Source: Pseudomonas protegens (lineage in GTDB: Bacteria > Pseudomonadota > Gammaproteobacteria > Pseudomonadales > Pseudomonadaceae). From it: DNA of 64,000 nt. Both the position numbers and the translations under genes were made by a program. Below the pieces are notes generated by a model, which was not told where the DNA came from, made no database searches, and worked only from the letters and a program-made list of their open reading frames with translations. The stretch's first letter is position 1; every line of letters starts with the position of its first letter. Shown in pieces: positions 46,412 to 50,467 of the stretch. The DNA is taken from NCBI RefSeq assembly GCF_013407925.2, contig NZ_CP060201.1, positions 1,736,001-1,800,000 on the forward strand, given 5' to 3'.

Positions 46412-47709
46412 TGATTCAACGCTCTTGGCGGTATCTGCTGGCCACACTGGTGGTGCTGGCTGTGATGGCGGGTGGCGGCTACTGGTGGTGGAACCGCCCC
46501 GCCCCTGAACCGACCCTGGAACAACTGACCCAGGCCGACGGCTCGACCCTGACCCGTGTGACCCCGGGCACCAAGGCCAAGGCCCGGGTGGTGGTGGCGG
46601 TGCTGCCTGACGCCACCCTGACCGACAAGCAACTGCTGGCCCTGAGCCGCAGCGGCGCGGCGCAGATTGTCCAGGTGGTCCTGCCCAAGGACGACTGCAA
46701 GCTGCAGGAACAAGCCCTGCAAGACGCCCTGCCCCAGCTCAGTGGCCCGGCCACCCTGGTCAGCGGCATCGGCCCGGGCGCGGCCCTGGCCTGGCGCTGG
46801 ATCGCGACCCAGAACGACGACAAGGCCCAGGCGGTGTCGGTAGGCTTCACCATCAACCCGGCCCCCGGCTGCACCGATCCACTGCCCAAGACCCTGGCCC
46901 ACGGCCACTGGCTGGTGGCCTGGAACGACAACCCGGATGACGAAAGCGCCGGCTTCGTGCGTGACACCCCCAACGCCACCACCAGCATCAGCGACTACGA
47001 CATCCACCTGCCCCAGGTGCTGAACAACGAGCTGCGCAAGCTGCTGGTGGGTTCGGAAAACGGCGGCCTGAGCATCCCCGTGGTGGAAGTCCCGGCCGGC
47101 CAGGCCAAGGACACCGTGACCCTGTTCCTCTCCGGCGACGGCGGCTGGCGCGACCTGGACCGCGACGTGGCCGGCGAGATGGCCAAGATCGGCTACCCGG
47201 TGGTGGGCATCGACACCCTGCGCTACTACTGGCAGCACAAGACCCCGGAACAGAGCGCCATCGACCTCACCGAGCTGATGCAGCACTACCGGCAGAAGTG
47301 GGGCACCAAACGCTTCGTGCTGACCGGCTACTCCTTCGGCGCCGACGTGCTGCCGGCCATCTACAACCGCCTGCCGGAAGCCGAGCAACAGCGCATCGAC
47401 GCCATTATCCTGCTGGCCTTCGCCCGCACCGGCAGCTTCGAGATCGAAGTCGAAGGCTGGCTGGGCAACGCCGGCAAGGAAGCCGCCACCGGCCCGGAAA
47501 TGGCCAAGCTGCCTGCGGCCAAGGTGGTGTGCATCTATGGCGTGGAAGAGGTCGACGAAAGCGGTTGTACCGACAAGACCGCCGTGGGTGAAGCCATGAA
47601 GCTGCCAGGGGGCCATCACTTCGATGAGAACTACCCGGCACTGGCCAAGCGCCTGGTGGATGCCATCGAGAAGCGTCAGGTCAAGGATCAGGCTACTGCT
47701 CAAGAATGA
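46411..47709 (+). CDS. AcvB/VirJ-family aminoacyl-phosphatidylglycerol hydrolase
   Basis: A 432-residue exported alpha/beta-hydrolase with an N-terminal membrane anchor (YLLATLVVLAVMAGGGYWWW). The nucleophile motif is GYSFG with Ser308, preceded by the family segment FLSGDGGWRDLD. Members remove the amino acid from Lys-PG or Ala-PG in the periplasm. It overlaps mprF by one nt, so synthase and hydrolase are made together. Confidence 0.92.
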   Translation: MIQRSWRYLLATLVVLAVMAGGGYWWWNRPAPEPTLEQLTQADGSTLTRVTPGTKAKARVVVAVLPDATLTDKQLLALSRSGAAQIVQVVLPKDDCKLQEQALQDALPQLSGPATLVSGIGPGAALAWRWIATQNDDKAQAVSVGFTINPAPGCTDPLPKTLAHGHWLVAWNDNPDDESAGFVRDTPNATTSISDYDIHLPQVLNNELRKLLVGSENGGLSIPVVEVPAGQAKDTVTLFLSGDGGWRDLDRDVAGEMAKIGYPVVGIDTLRYYWQHKTPEQSAIDLTELMQHYRQKWGTKRFVLTGYSFGADVLPAIYNRLPEAEQQRIDAIILLAFARTGSFEIEVEGWLGNAGKEAATGPEMAKLPAAKVVCIYGVEEVDESGCTDKTAVGEAMKLPGGHHFDENYPALAKRLVDAIEKRQVKDQATAQE

Positions 47710-47726
47710 GCTGAGCCTCGCTCCAT

Positions 47727-47764
47727 AAAAGCCCCCGCAGCCTTGAAGCTGCGGGGGCTTTTTT
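47727..47764 (+). terminator. Terminator of the mprF operon
   Basis: A long perfect stem AAAAGCCCCCGCAGC / GCTGCGGGGGCTTTT and T tract. Confidence 0.93.
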
Positions 47765-47924
47765 ACATCAGCTGCCCCGTTGAAGACGGCTTAATTGCGG
47801 ATGACTACCGCGCAGCTTGTAGGCAAACTCCGAGAGTTGCGTAAGGGGTGCGTTTTGGGCACTTTGCTGCCTTGTTGGCCTTGGCTTCGACGGGCTAGGC
47901 TCCGGGAGTCGCTGAGCATTCAGT

Positions 47925-48131
47925 GACCGGGCTTGGAAACCCGAAGAACCTTGGCAACTAGCGCCCCGCTTGATTGCAGATAAATTTTGCGCCTGCAATC
48001 CATCTGTTATGGCGGCTGTGCGTGGGAGACCTTCGGGTCTGCCGGTTTCCTTGGTTTCCGGTTTTCCAACCTGCGCATAGCTGCCACCCATTCGCTTGGA
48101 AACGAACGTGGTAGCTCCTCAAACCTTGGAG
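47925..48131 (+). ncRNA. Structured RNA leader of the DUF3077 gene, candidate cis-regulatory element
   Basis: A multi-hairpin region directly before the start codon. P1: CGGG-CTTGGAAA-CCCG (47928-47943). P2: GATTGCAG / CTGCAATC (47972-47979 with 47993-48000). P3: a 12-bp closing stem GGCGGCTGTGCG (48011-48022) with CGCATAGCTGCC (48074-48085), enclosing a UUCG hairpin AGACC/GGTCT (48027-48040) and a CCGG/CCGG arm (48042-48045 with 48058-48061). P4: AGCTGCCAC (48079-48087) with GTGGTAGCT (48108-48116), capped by TTCG-CTTGGAAA-CGAA. P3 and P4 share 48079-48085, so they exclude each other. CTTGGA recurs over the ribosome site (48125-48130). Structure was read by eye, not computed. Confidence 0.7.
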
Positions 48132-48138
48132 TTGAACC

Positions 48139-48414
48139 ATGAACAATACAAACCCGCCTCAACTTTCAAATCTTAAAACAGTCGGCTTAAGCACTTTCCT
48201 TTACTGCTCGGAACGCCCGCTGTTCCAGGTCTGCCCCGGCCTGCCCATCGGCGACGCCCTGGCCCAAGCCTCCGATCTGCTGTCCCTGGCCAAGGCCTTC
48301 GCCGAGGACGCCGCCTACAGCAAGGACAGCGACCGTCACGCCTGGGCCGCGCACTACCTGACCGCCATGGGCAAGGCGGTGGTGGACGATGTGGTGCAGG
48401 CGCTCGCCGCGTAA
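48139..48414 (+). CDS. DUF3077 small protein
   Basis: A 91-residue soluble protein with the DUF3077 pattern LFQVCPGLPIGDALAQASDLLSLAKAFAED... HAWAAHYLTAMGKAVVDDV, mostly helical. The family is found mainly in Pseudomonas, often with several paralogues; the function is unknown. The ribosome site TTGGAG (48126-48131) lies 7 nt before the ATG and repeats the CTTGGA found in two upstream hairpin loops, suggesting translational control. Confidence 0.85.
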   Translation: MNNTNPPQLSNLKTVGLSTFLYCSERPLFQVCPGLPIGDALAQASDLLSLAKAFAEDAAYSKDSDRHAWAAHYLTAMGKAVVDDVVQALAA

Positions 48415-48479
48415 CGCGCGAGGGGCGGTCTCGCGAAAGCGTTCTGTTATCGGCATTGATGTTGGCTGTCGGGCCGTTA

Positions 48480-48502
48480 TCGCGAGCAAGCTCGCTCCTA
48501 CA
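48480..48502. repeat. Short palindromic repeat (GCGAGCAAGCTCGC type)
   Basis: TCGCGAGCAAGCTCGCTCCTACAG, a common Pseudomonas REP variant. A related copy is at 54895-54915. Confidence 0.7.
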
Positions 48503-48516
48503 GGGTCCGTGAAACG

Positions 48517-48553
48517 AAAAAGCCCCCGCTGCCGGCAGGCAACGGGGGCTTTT
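48517..48553 (-). terminator. Terminator of kup, usable from both sides
   Basis: AAAAGCCCCCG / CGGGGGCTTTT stem around a GCCGGC-containing loop. T tract on the minus strand follows the kup stop. Confidence 0.85.
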
Positions 48554-48565
48554 AGGGGCTCGGGT

Positions 48566-50467
48566 TTATATCTCGACCTGGGTGCCCAGTTCGATCACCC
48601 GGTTCACCGGCAGTTTGAAGAAGCGCAGGTTGCCGTTGGCGTTCTTCAACATGAAGGCGAACAGCGCCTCGCGCCAGCGGGCCATGCCTTCGAGCTTGGA
48701 GGCGATCACCGTCTCGCGGCTGAGGAAGTAGGTGGTGCGCATCGGGCTGAAGTCCAGTTCATCCAGGTGGCACAGCTTGAGGGCTTCCGGTACGTCCGGC
48801 TCGTCGGTGAAACCAAAATGCAGGATCACCCGGAAGAAGCCTTCGCCGTAGGAATCCACCTCGAAACGCCGCTGCGCAGGGACCCGGGGAATGTCCTCGT
48901 AGACCACGGTCAACAGCACCACTTGCTCATGCAGCACCTGGTTGTGCAGCAGGTTGTGCAGCAAGGCGTGGGGCACGGCGTCCGGACGCGCGGTGAGGAA
49001 CACTGCGGTGCCCTGGACCCGATGCGGCGGCTGCACGCGGATGCTGCCGATGAAGATCGGCAGCGGCAGCCCGCCTTCGTCCAGGCGGTCCACCAGCAGC
49101 TCCTTGCCGCGTTTCCAGGTGGTCATGAGGATGAACAGCACGATCCCCGCCAGTACCGGGAAGGCACCGCCCTGGACGATCTTCGGCACGTTGGCGGCGA
49201 AGAACAGCCCGTCCACCAGCAGGAAGCCCACCAAAATCGGCACGGTCAGCACCGGCGGCCATTTCCACAGCAGCAGCATCACCGCCGACACCAGGATGCT
49301 GGTGATCAGCATGGTCCCGGTCACCGCCACGCCGTAGGCCGAGGCCAGGGCGCCGGAGGACTCGAAACCGAGCACCAGCAGGATCACGCCCACCATCAGC
49401 GACCAGTTGACCGCGCCGATGTAGATCTGCCCCTGCTCGGCACTGGAGGTGTGCTGAATGTACATGCGCGGGATGTAGCCCAGTTGGATCGCCTGACGGG
49501 TCAGGGAGAAGGCCCCGGAAATCACCGCCTGGGAGGCGATCACCGTGGCCAGGGTCGCCAGCACCACCAGCGGAATCAGGGCCCAGCCCGGCGCCAGCAG
49601 GTAGAACGGGTTGCGCGCTGCGTCGGGGTTCTCCAGCAGCAACGCGCCCTGGCCGAAGTAGTTCAGCACCAGGGCCGGCAGCACCAGGGCGAACCAGGCC
49701 CGGGCAATCGGCTTGCGACCAAAGTGGCCCATGTCGGCGTACAGGGCCTCAGCGCCAGTCAGCGCCAGCACCACGGCGCCGAGAATGGCCACGCCCATGC
49801 CGGGATGGACGATGAAGAAGCGCACGCCCCACACCGGGTTCAGTGCCTGCAGCACTTCCGGATGCTGGAGAATGCCGTTGACCCCCAAGCCGCCCAGCAC
49901 CAGGAACCAGGCCACCATCACCGGGCCAAACAGCTTGCCGATGCGGTCGGTGCCGTGTTTCTGGATCAGAAACAGCGCCACCAGCACCACCAGCGCCATG
50001 GGCACCACCCAGTGCTCCAGGCCGCTGAACGCCAGTTCCAGCCCTTCCACCGCCGACAATACCGAGATCGCCGGGGTGATCATGCTGTCGCCGTAGAACA
50101 AGGCGGCGCCGATCAAGCCGAGAATCACCAGCACCGAACGCAGGCGTGGATAGGAGCCGGCCGCACGCCGGGCCAGTGCCGTCAGGGCCATGATGCCGCC
50201 CTCGCCCTGGTTGTCGGCGCGCAGGATGAACAGCACGTACTTGATCGAAACGACCCAGATCAACGACCAGAAAATCAGCGCCAGGATGCCAAACACCCCA
50301 TCGTGGTTGACCTGAACGCCATAACTGCCGGAAAACACCTCTTTGAGGGTATAGAGCGGGCTGGTGCCAATATCGCCGTACACCACCCCGACCGCCGCCA
50401 CCAGCATCCCCAGAGGCTTAGCCCCGGAGTGCTCGCCACTCACCGCCTGACCATTTGCCTGACCCAT
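48566..50467 (-). CDS. kup: Kup low-affinity K+ transporter
   Basis: A 633-residue potassium uptake protein with about 12 membrane helices and a C-terminal cytoplasmic domain. The N-terminal block [19 protein letters not shown] and helix motif [18 protein letters not shown] are diagnostic of KUP/HAK. ATG 50467 follows AGGAG by 6 nt; the TTG one codon upstream is not needed. Confidence 0.95.

Follow-up and report, generated by a model that had tools for sequence, protein, structure and literature searches.

The window, a stretch of 64,000 nt from Pseudomonas protegens, carried a gene for a 91-aa DUF3077 protein at the acvB–kup site, and the leader of this gene contained a C4 antisense RNA together with candidate target sites. 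A search of Rfam, which had been proposed in an earlier note on this DNA, gave C4 at 88.1 bits and c4-a1b1 at 48.3 bits. The C4 match covered the full length of the model (positions 1–87 of 87), and RF01394 isrK matched 47908–47975 below its cut-off (29.5 bits, cut-off 50). C4 is a phage immunity RNA, which is excised by RNase P in phage P1. The elements were arranged in the order a1, b1, C4, a2, b2 and DUF3077 gene, and the parts of the leader were as follows.

47872..47901, + strand: putative promoter-like sequence TTGTTG-N18-TAGGCT, immediately 5′ of the a1 element
47895..47947, + strand: c4-a1b1 upstream target region (RF03163; 48.3 bits, cut-off 46.7)
47928–47943, + strand: a1 hairpin CGGG-CTTGGAAA-CCCG (letters checked)
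47933..47939, + strand: a1 target TTGGAAA in the loop of hairpin 47928–47943, a perfect complement of the C4 linker a′
47947..47954, + strand: b1 target AACCTTGG, an 8-mer identical to b2 (b1 position according to phage P1)
48005..48091, + strand: C4 antisense RNA (RF01695; 88.1 bits, cut-off 45), with predicted fold
48010–48026 with 48070–48086, + strand: C4 stem P1, 17 bp (predicted fold)
48027–48040, + strand: C4 P2, a UUCG hairpin (predicted fold)
48041–48062, + strand: C4 P3 hairpin with a 12-nt loop (predicted fold)
48046..48057, + strand: antisense segment b′, the P3 loop TTTCCTTGGTTT (by homology)
48063..48069, + strand: antisense segment a′, the linker TTTCCAA, complementary to both a1 and a2 at all 7 nt
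48091..48106, + strand: a2 hairpin TTCG-CTTGGAAA-CGAA (letters checked; a2 position according to phage P1)
48096–48102, + strand: a2 target TTGGAAA, complementary to a′ at 7/7 nt
48108..48116, + strand: strand c2, GTGGTAGCT (pairing options by sequence and fold prediction)
48122..48131, + strand: b2 target AACCTTGGAG, overlapping the Shine–Dalgarno sequence (b2 position according to phage P1)
48125–48130, + strand: CTTGGA over the ribosome site, part of b2 (letters checked)
48139..48414, + strand: DUF3077 gene, 91 aa, downstream of the leader (PF11275, E 2.2e-29)

The two hairpins with an identical loop and the CTTGGA on the Shine–Dalgarno sequence, both described in the earlier note, were confirmed in the letters. 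The 12-bp stem that it had reported was real and belonged to the 17-bp stem of C4, and its 9-bp stem (48079–48087 with 48108–48116) can form with one G–U from bases that overlap those of the longer stem. The suggestion of a structured leader also held, and the C4 and its target sites appear to be positioned for translational control of the DUF3077 gene. Sequences of the form TTG...TAnnnT, resembling 47872..47901, were seen by eye before a1 in many paralogues; a consensus scan of 47300–49000 returned no promoter-like sites. The b′ loop faced two sites, namely b2 (AACCTTGGAG, over the ribosome site) and the upstream b1 (AACCTTGG). The pairing of b1 with b′ was imperfect, and CCTTGG of b′ did not match AACCTTGG of b2, where two central U–U oppositions occurred. 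Only the a pairing was perfect in the window because these two U–U oppositions interrupt the b pairing.

The predicted fold of the leader was 4 sd below that of dinucleotide shuffles. For the isolated leader, the pair probability was 0.97 for the 17-bp C4 stem and 0.02 for the alternative 9-bp stem, and the a1 and a2 hairpins, both of 4 bp, were weak (0.07 and 0.15, respectively). Two folds are possible, as had been proposed, with an alternative stem that recurs across loci and is rare in the prediction for the window. Moreover, a predicted hairpin (48107–48118 with 48128–48141) closes the Shine–Dalgarno sequence and the start codon. The c2 strand, which follows a2, may pair with the 3′ strand of stem P1 (48079–48087); alternatively, c2 and adjacent bases may pair with the start codon and the ribosome site. 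Since this predicted hairpin would close the ribosome site even without C4, C4 is perhaps not the sole lock.

The genome to which the window belongs (6.82 Mb, one contig) contained 28 C4 matches, all above the cut-off, and none was found in the 14 control genomes. A protein of family A, B or C was present within 700 nt behind all 28, as judged with family B and C profiles that were built from members of this same genome; two of the 28 copies were degenerate (L039 and L040). The partners were family A (DUF3077) in 7 cases, family B (DUF6124-like) in 10 and family C (unnamed) in 11. Homology between DUF3077 and family B was supported by hhalign (probability 91, E 1.1e-6). For family C, hhalign did not establish homology to DUF3077 (probability 5.8) or to family B (probability 0.1), and the models of family C and DUF3077 were each predicted to consist mainly of two long helices. 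Family C proteins had about 86–106 aa and the pattern M..YMPITGHDC...LLRDGCDLLDV. Their loci, with C4 at about position 1501, were L007, L009, L011, L014, L015, L017, L018, L033, L035, L038 and L039, and two relatives (L041 and L044) were without a scored C4. No Pfam match at E ≤ 1 was obtained for the four family C members scanned, and no NCBIfam match for the two scanned. The short-chain dehydrogenase name of some family C entries is unlikely because the proteins have only about 90 aa. Fold searches gave no PDB match at E ≤ 0.001, three proteins had no match in an anti-phage defence library, and the window protein had no tblastn match on plasmids at E ≤ 0.01.

Several arrangements in this genome departed from the complete cassette. 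Three genes of families B and C had an a1b1 element without C4 (L032, 1295–1387; L042, 1001–1078; L041, 1501–1614), and such genes could be targets for the C4s of other loci. L010 and L019 (G000:C1:3365550-3366623) were neighbouring cassettes, separated by about 1 kb, that had an identical a code, an identical 117-aa protein and different b codes, which is a recent duplication with divergence of the code. The top-scoring DUF6124 match of this genome (L030) was without a nearby C4 and adjoined a PrrF sRNA gene (168 bits). In 14 of the 28 own copies the stretch from b1 to C4 held a terminator-like site, compared with 6% of base shuffles; because of this site, these 14 copies could plausibly give rise to a short decoy RNA. 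No terminator-like site followed b1 in the window, and terminator-based attenuation ahead of C4 was accordingly rejected for the window.

The antisense segments and their targets were compared among the 26 intact paralogues, that is, the own copies minus L039 and L040. The a′ segment was a perfect 7-nt complement of a1 in 25 and of a2 in 25, with 14 different codes in use, and the a1 and a2 loops were equal in 24. Double-sided changes were present at 19 of the 28 base pairs of C4. Pairing energies were evaluated with ungapped helices at 27 loci. The mean for self pairs was −16.1 versus −10.2 kcal/mol for non-self pairs between b′ and the downstream region, and −14.0 versus −9.7 kcal/mol between a′ and the downstream region. 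The corresponding values for the upstream region were −14.4 versus −10.9 for b′ and −13.8 versus −10.6 for a′, and all four self means were reached by 0 of 100,000 permutations. As a set, the C4s of the 27 paralogues preferred their own targets. For b′ downstream, self was the best target at 17 of the 27 loci and ranked in the top three at 21. The own b site of the window ranked 13 of 27, and its a + b self-pairing (−20.2) was the weakest among the 26 intact loci. Ungapped helices replaced gapped duplex energies because long bulges blurred the signal, a choice made after the gapped result; the gapped energies gave the same 0/100,000 for b′ and a′ downstream and a′ upstream, 73/100,000 versus 0 for b′ upstream, and self as the best b′ target downstream at 6/27 versus 17/27 loci. 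For the 51 distinct P3 loops among 79 loci, 0 of 20,000 permutations reached the self value in all four comparisons, and 23 of the 51 had self as the top-ranked target of b′ downstream.

A scan of genome contigs gave 57 relatives of the DUF3077 protein, all in Pseudomonas, and a C4 lay upstream on the same strand in 52 of them; in 49 cases the match was almost full-length and no more than 170 nt away. Other Pseudomonas DUF3077 genes thus have similar leaders, as the earlier note had stated. Six orthologues occupied the same acvB–kup site, where the leader was largely conserved and b′ and b2 changed together, as judged by eye; examples were CTTAACTC/GAGTTAAG and CTTGACTC/GAGTCAAG, and the correspondence was weaker and imperfect in L079. 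The dN/dS values of ten pairs, drawn from the window and four orthologues, were 0.15–0.53, indicating purifying selection. Among 29 other kup loci, a C4 was present at the acvB–kup site in 4, and 15 had acvB at most 700 nt from kup and lacked an intervening C4; the remaining 10 were left unjudged, as acvB was missing from the stretch in 9 and a 764-nt gap without C4 was seen in 1. The cassette is therefore a small insert that the acvB–kup site has in some cases and lacks in others.

The distribution of C4 was broad in the genus. At least 184 of 199 sampled Pseudomonas genomes, the own genome included, had a C4 (up to 20 candidates scored per genome, so that high counts are lower bounds), as did at least 17 of 273 other genomes in a class-wide draw (up to 15 candidates scored per genome). 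Among 30 C4 loci (out of 49 matches) from another six Pseudomonas genomes, 24 had family A or B within 700 nt, sometimes behind another small ORF, and 6 had no A, B or C protein within that distance. The 29 best-scoring loci of the genus had an A, B or C protein within 700 nt in 15 cases and none in 14, and the 17 profile-placed C4 loci of the class-wide draw gave one family C match (L135) and 16 without a match. Some of the remaining C4s preceded other small ORFs, and some preceded Bro-N proteins. Eight C4-following proteins from outside Pseudomonas, chosen by eye from 21 first ORFs, were scanned: six, from four genomes, were AntA, Rha (2), Bro-N (2) or P22_AR_N, and two matched nothing. Within Pseudomonas, the C4s of L065, L067 and L074 stood before 175-aa Bro-N-like antirepressor proteins (PF02498, E 5e-11 for L065; L067 and L074 were assigned by likeness).

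The three CTTGGA motifs, in the two hairpin loops and at the ribosome site, had been interpreted in the earlier note as sites at which RsmA/RsmE (CsrA family) binds GGA and represses translation, and known RsmA/RsmE leaders, like that of the window, have GGA both in loops and over the ribosome site. Unlike in those leaders, GGA was not conserved here, being found in 7/26 a1 loops and 7/26 a2 loops, whereas the loops tracked C4 with complementarity in 25/26. The repeats are targets of the intervening C4 on this evidence, and Rsm binding is a very improbable explanation because GGA occurs in so few loops and the loops follow C4; it could form an extra layer, though nothing here calls for one. 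The other proposal was a riboswitch with two exclusive folds that answers ligand or temperature. The alternative stem between the 3′ strand of stem P1 and 48108–48116 is present and recurrent, and the ribosome site is closed in the predicted hairpin, both of which would suit a riboswitch. However, the varying parts changed as antisense/target pairs, which is expected of RNA–RNA recognition and not of a ligand pocket, and the Rfam assignment was C4; we give this proposal hardly any credence. The earlier note was therefore supported in part, its observation being correct and its interpretation mostly not. A different possibility is that the window cassette is a decaying copy, the C4 of which drifted off its own b2 so that self-regulation was lost. 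The mismatch of b′ and b2, the lowest a + b self-pairing of the 26 loci and the degeneration of two other copies are consistent with decay, but the C4 fold was intact at 88 bits, the a pairing was perfect, b1 was the same as b2, and the DUF3077 protein was under purifying selection. Decay of the cassette is hence possible but unlikely.

A switch in cis was also considered, in which either C4 is folded and c2 closes the ribosome site, or c2 pairs with the 3′ strand of stem P1, so that C4 is destroyed and the site is open. Antisense and messenger would then be alternative products of a single transcript. The c2 strand resembles the 5′ strand of stem P1 and paired with the 3′ strand in most own copies, and this pairing was shared by loci of other genera as a set and, imperfectly, by phage P1, with double-sided changes in some copies (L011, L019 and L039). 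The alternative stem scored higher for self than for non-self: the self value was reached by 30 of 20,000 permutations for the 28 own loci, by 237 of 20,000 for 21 loci of other genera plus phage P1, and by 0 of 20,000 for 38 de-duplicated loci. In addition, the Shine–Dalgarno sequence was predicted to be mostly paired in 24 of 25 own copies, often with a CTCC beside c2, in folds from the end of C4 onward, a figure that comes without a shuffle baseline. Against the switch, the margin between self and non-self was small (16.8 versus 15.8 for own loci; 16.1 versus 14.9 for other genera and phage P1), only four contiguous pairs were formed in L017, L020, L034 and L037, and the alternative stem was rarely populated against the C4 stem in the predicted fold of the window. 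We hold the switch, and with it the notion of alternative products, to be doubtful. It is an addition to the C4 explanation and no contradiction of it, and in the accessible parts of the C4 literature no description was found of C4 and an open messenger as alternative fates.

The leader is very probably a C4 antisense cassette of the phage P1 type with matching target sites. A single transcript would start just 5′ of a1 and run through a1, b1, C4, a2 and b2 over the ribosome site into the DUF3077 gene, and C4 would be cut out of it, as by RNase P in phage P1. The freed C4 would pair through a′ with a2 and through the P3 loop b′ with b2, and ribosome entry would be blocked. The a1/b1 element would bind the same C4 and may serve as a decoy or feedback site.

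The cassette was compared with known systems. The annotation of the phage P1 record AF234172 gives the order promoters, a1, b1, C4, a2, b2 and icd. The window resembled the C4 of phages P1 and P7 with icd-ant (immI) in the order a1-b1-C4-a2-b2-small gene, the Rfam family (by name), the three-stem fold and the position of b2 just 5′ of the start codon. It differed in that DUF3077 is guarded instead of icd/ant, in its place on the chromosome with no repressor, Cro or Ogr relatives within 1.5 kb, and in being one among 28 copies; an immunity region of the P1 C4-icd-ant type, with icd/ant guarded in a phage, is hence not what this cassette belongs to. C4 has been described in Proteobacteria and phages, according to the available part of Weinberg 2010 (PMC2864571). 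The Group 1 sRNAs of Acinetobacter baumannii, as presented in the accessible text, comprise 21 similar C4-like sequences in one genome (PMC5320573), and they share with the present set the multi-copy chromosomal state and variable a′ segments. That text identifies no target for Group 1 and discusses phage or bacterial ones (PMC5320573); unlike these RNAs as there described, the C4s here matched their own adjacent genes as a set. In Gifsy-1, IsrK is a short RNA that activates a downstream operon in trans, in the portion of the report available (PMC4825925). The Salmonella Gifsy-1 IsrK-orf45-anrP region outlined there consists of a short RNA, the processed STnc1160 of about 80 nt, a small ORF and an antirepressor gene (PMC4825925), and on this partial account STnc1160 would correspond to C4. 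Unlike Gifsy-1 as so described, the window lacked a terminator-like site downstream of b1; half of the own copies (14 of 28) have one.

The link of DUF3077 to phages was explored in viral sequences. An alignment scan of IMG/VR contigs gave 26 DUF3077 loci, all with a C4 just upstream, and in 20 of them a common module with repressor (HTH_3), Cro-like and Ogr/Delta-like proteins (Pfam) lay 1–3.6 kb downstream. Because of Ogr, this module may be read as a P2-type prophage immunity region. Relatives of six prophage-module proteins were absent within 1.5 kb of the 28 own copies, and tblastn with four queries detected no DUF3077 relative among 50,697 named phage records. The window protein matched phrog_36471 (E 5e-12) and phrog_6327 (E 3e-7) in PHROGs, and the phage link rests on IMG/VR and PHROGs because the named phage records gave no match. 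The results suggest that viral DUF3077 controls lysogeny under the guard of C4 and that many copies, the window cassette among them, stand alone on chromosomes. Most likely, DUF3077 is a small protein of the antirepressor type with a role in lysogeny control, since prophage-like contigs have the cassette close to a repressor module and since C4 can precede antirepressors elsewhere. In Pseudomonas putida KT2440, the DUF3077 pseudogene PP_RS01475 became intact in a furfural-tolerant evolved strain, as stated in the available part of that study (PMC9630843), and its restoration possibly hints at an effect on growth.

The chromosomal C4s might further constitute an RNA immunity repertoire against C4-guarded prophages, an idea we regard as quite unlikely. 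If true, the C4 of the window would act on an infecting phage by shutting off its lysogeny-control gene, and the DUF3077 gene of the window itself would escape this silencing. The a code TTTCCAA of the window was shared with 8 of the 26 viral contigs, to which the predicted a + b pairing of its C4 was −22.3 to −28.3, compared with −20.2 to its own leader. For 12 of the 26 viral targets the window C4 ranked first, alone or tied, among the own copies, and averaged over the 26 its pairing was the strongest (−22.3, next −19.8). The score was free to pick the best downstream site, and in contigs whose a code differs the a′ part accordingly lay off a2. Since the viral set was found through the protein family of the window, closeness by descent is to be expected. 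The phages' own C4s mostly paired more strongly than the window C4, and other own copies also matched single contigs (L004 with L243). The C4 of L243 had a′ and b′ identical to those of the chromosomal L004; it is possibly host flank because the gene is at the contig end.

No paper on C4 with DUF3077- or DUF6124-type genes in Pseudomonas was found in a literature made up of main texts with few subscription papers. Multi-copy C4-like RNAs as such are already known from Acinetobacter, as the accessible text shows (PMC5320573). The present RNA belongs to a known family and the type of gene that it guards is new, and its high-copy, mostly privately coded chromosomal form was not found in print. 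In Pseudomonas, the likely targets of C4 can be read from the set-wise match to the own neighbour and from the mostly private codes. One genome thereby offers about two dozen predicted antisense/target pairs as a natural set. Furthermore, DUF3077 and DUF6124 gain a testable hypothesis, namely, that they may be C4-guarded lysogeny-control proteins.
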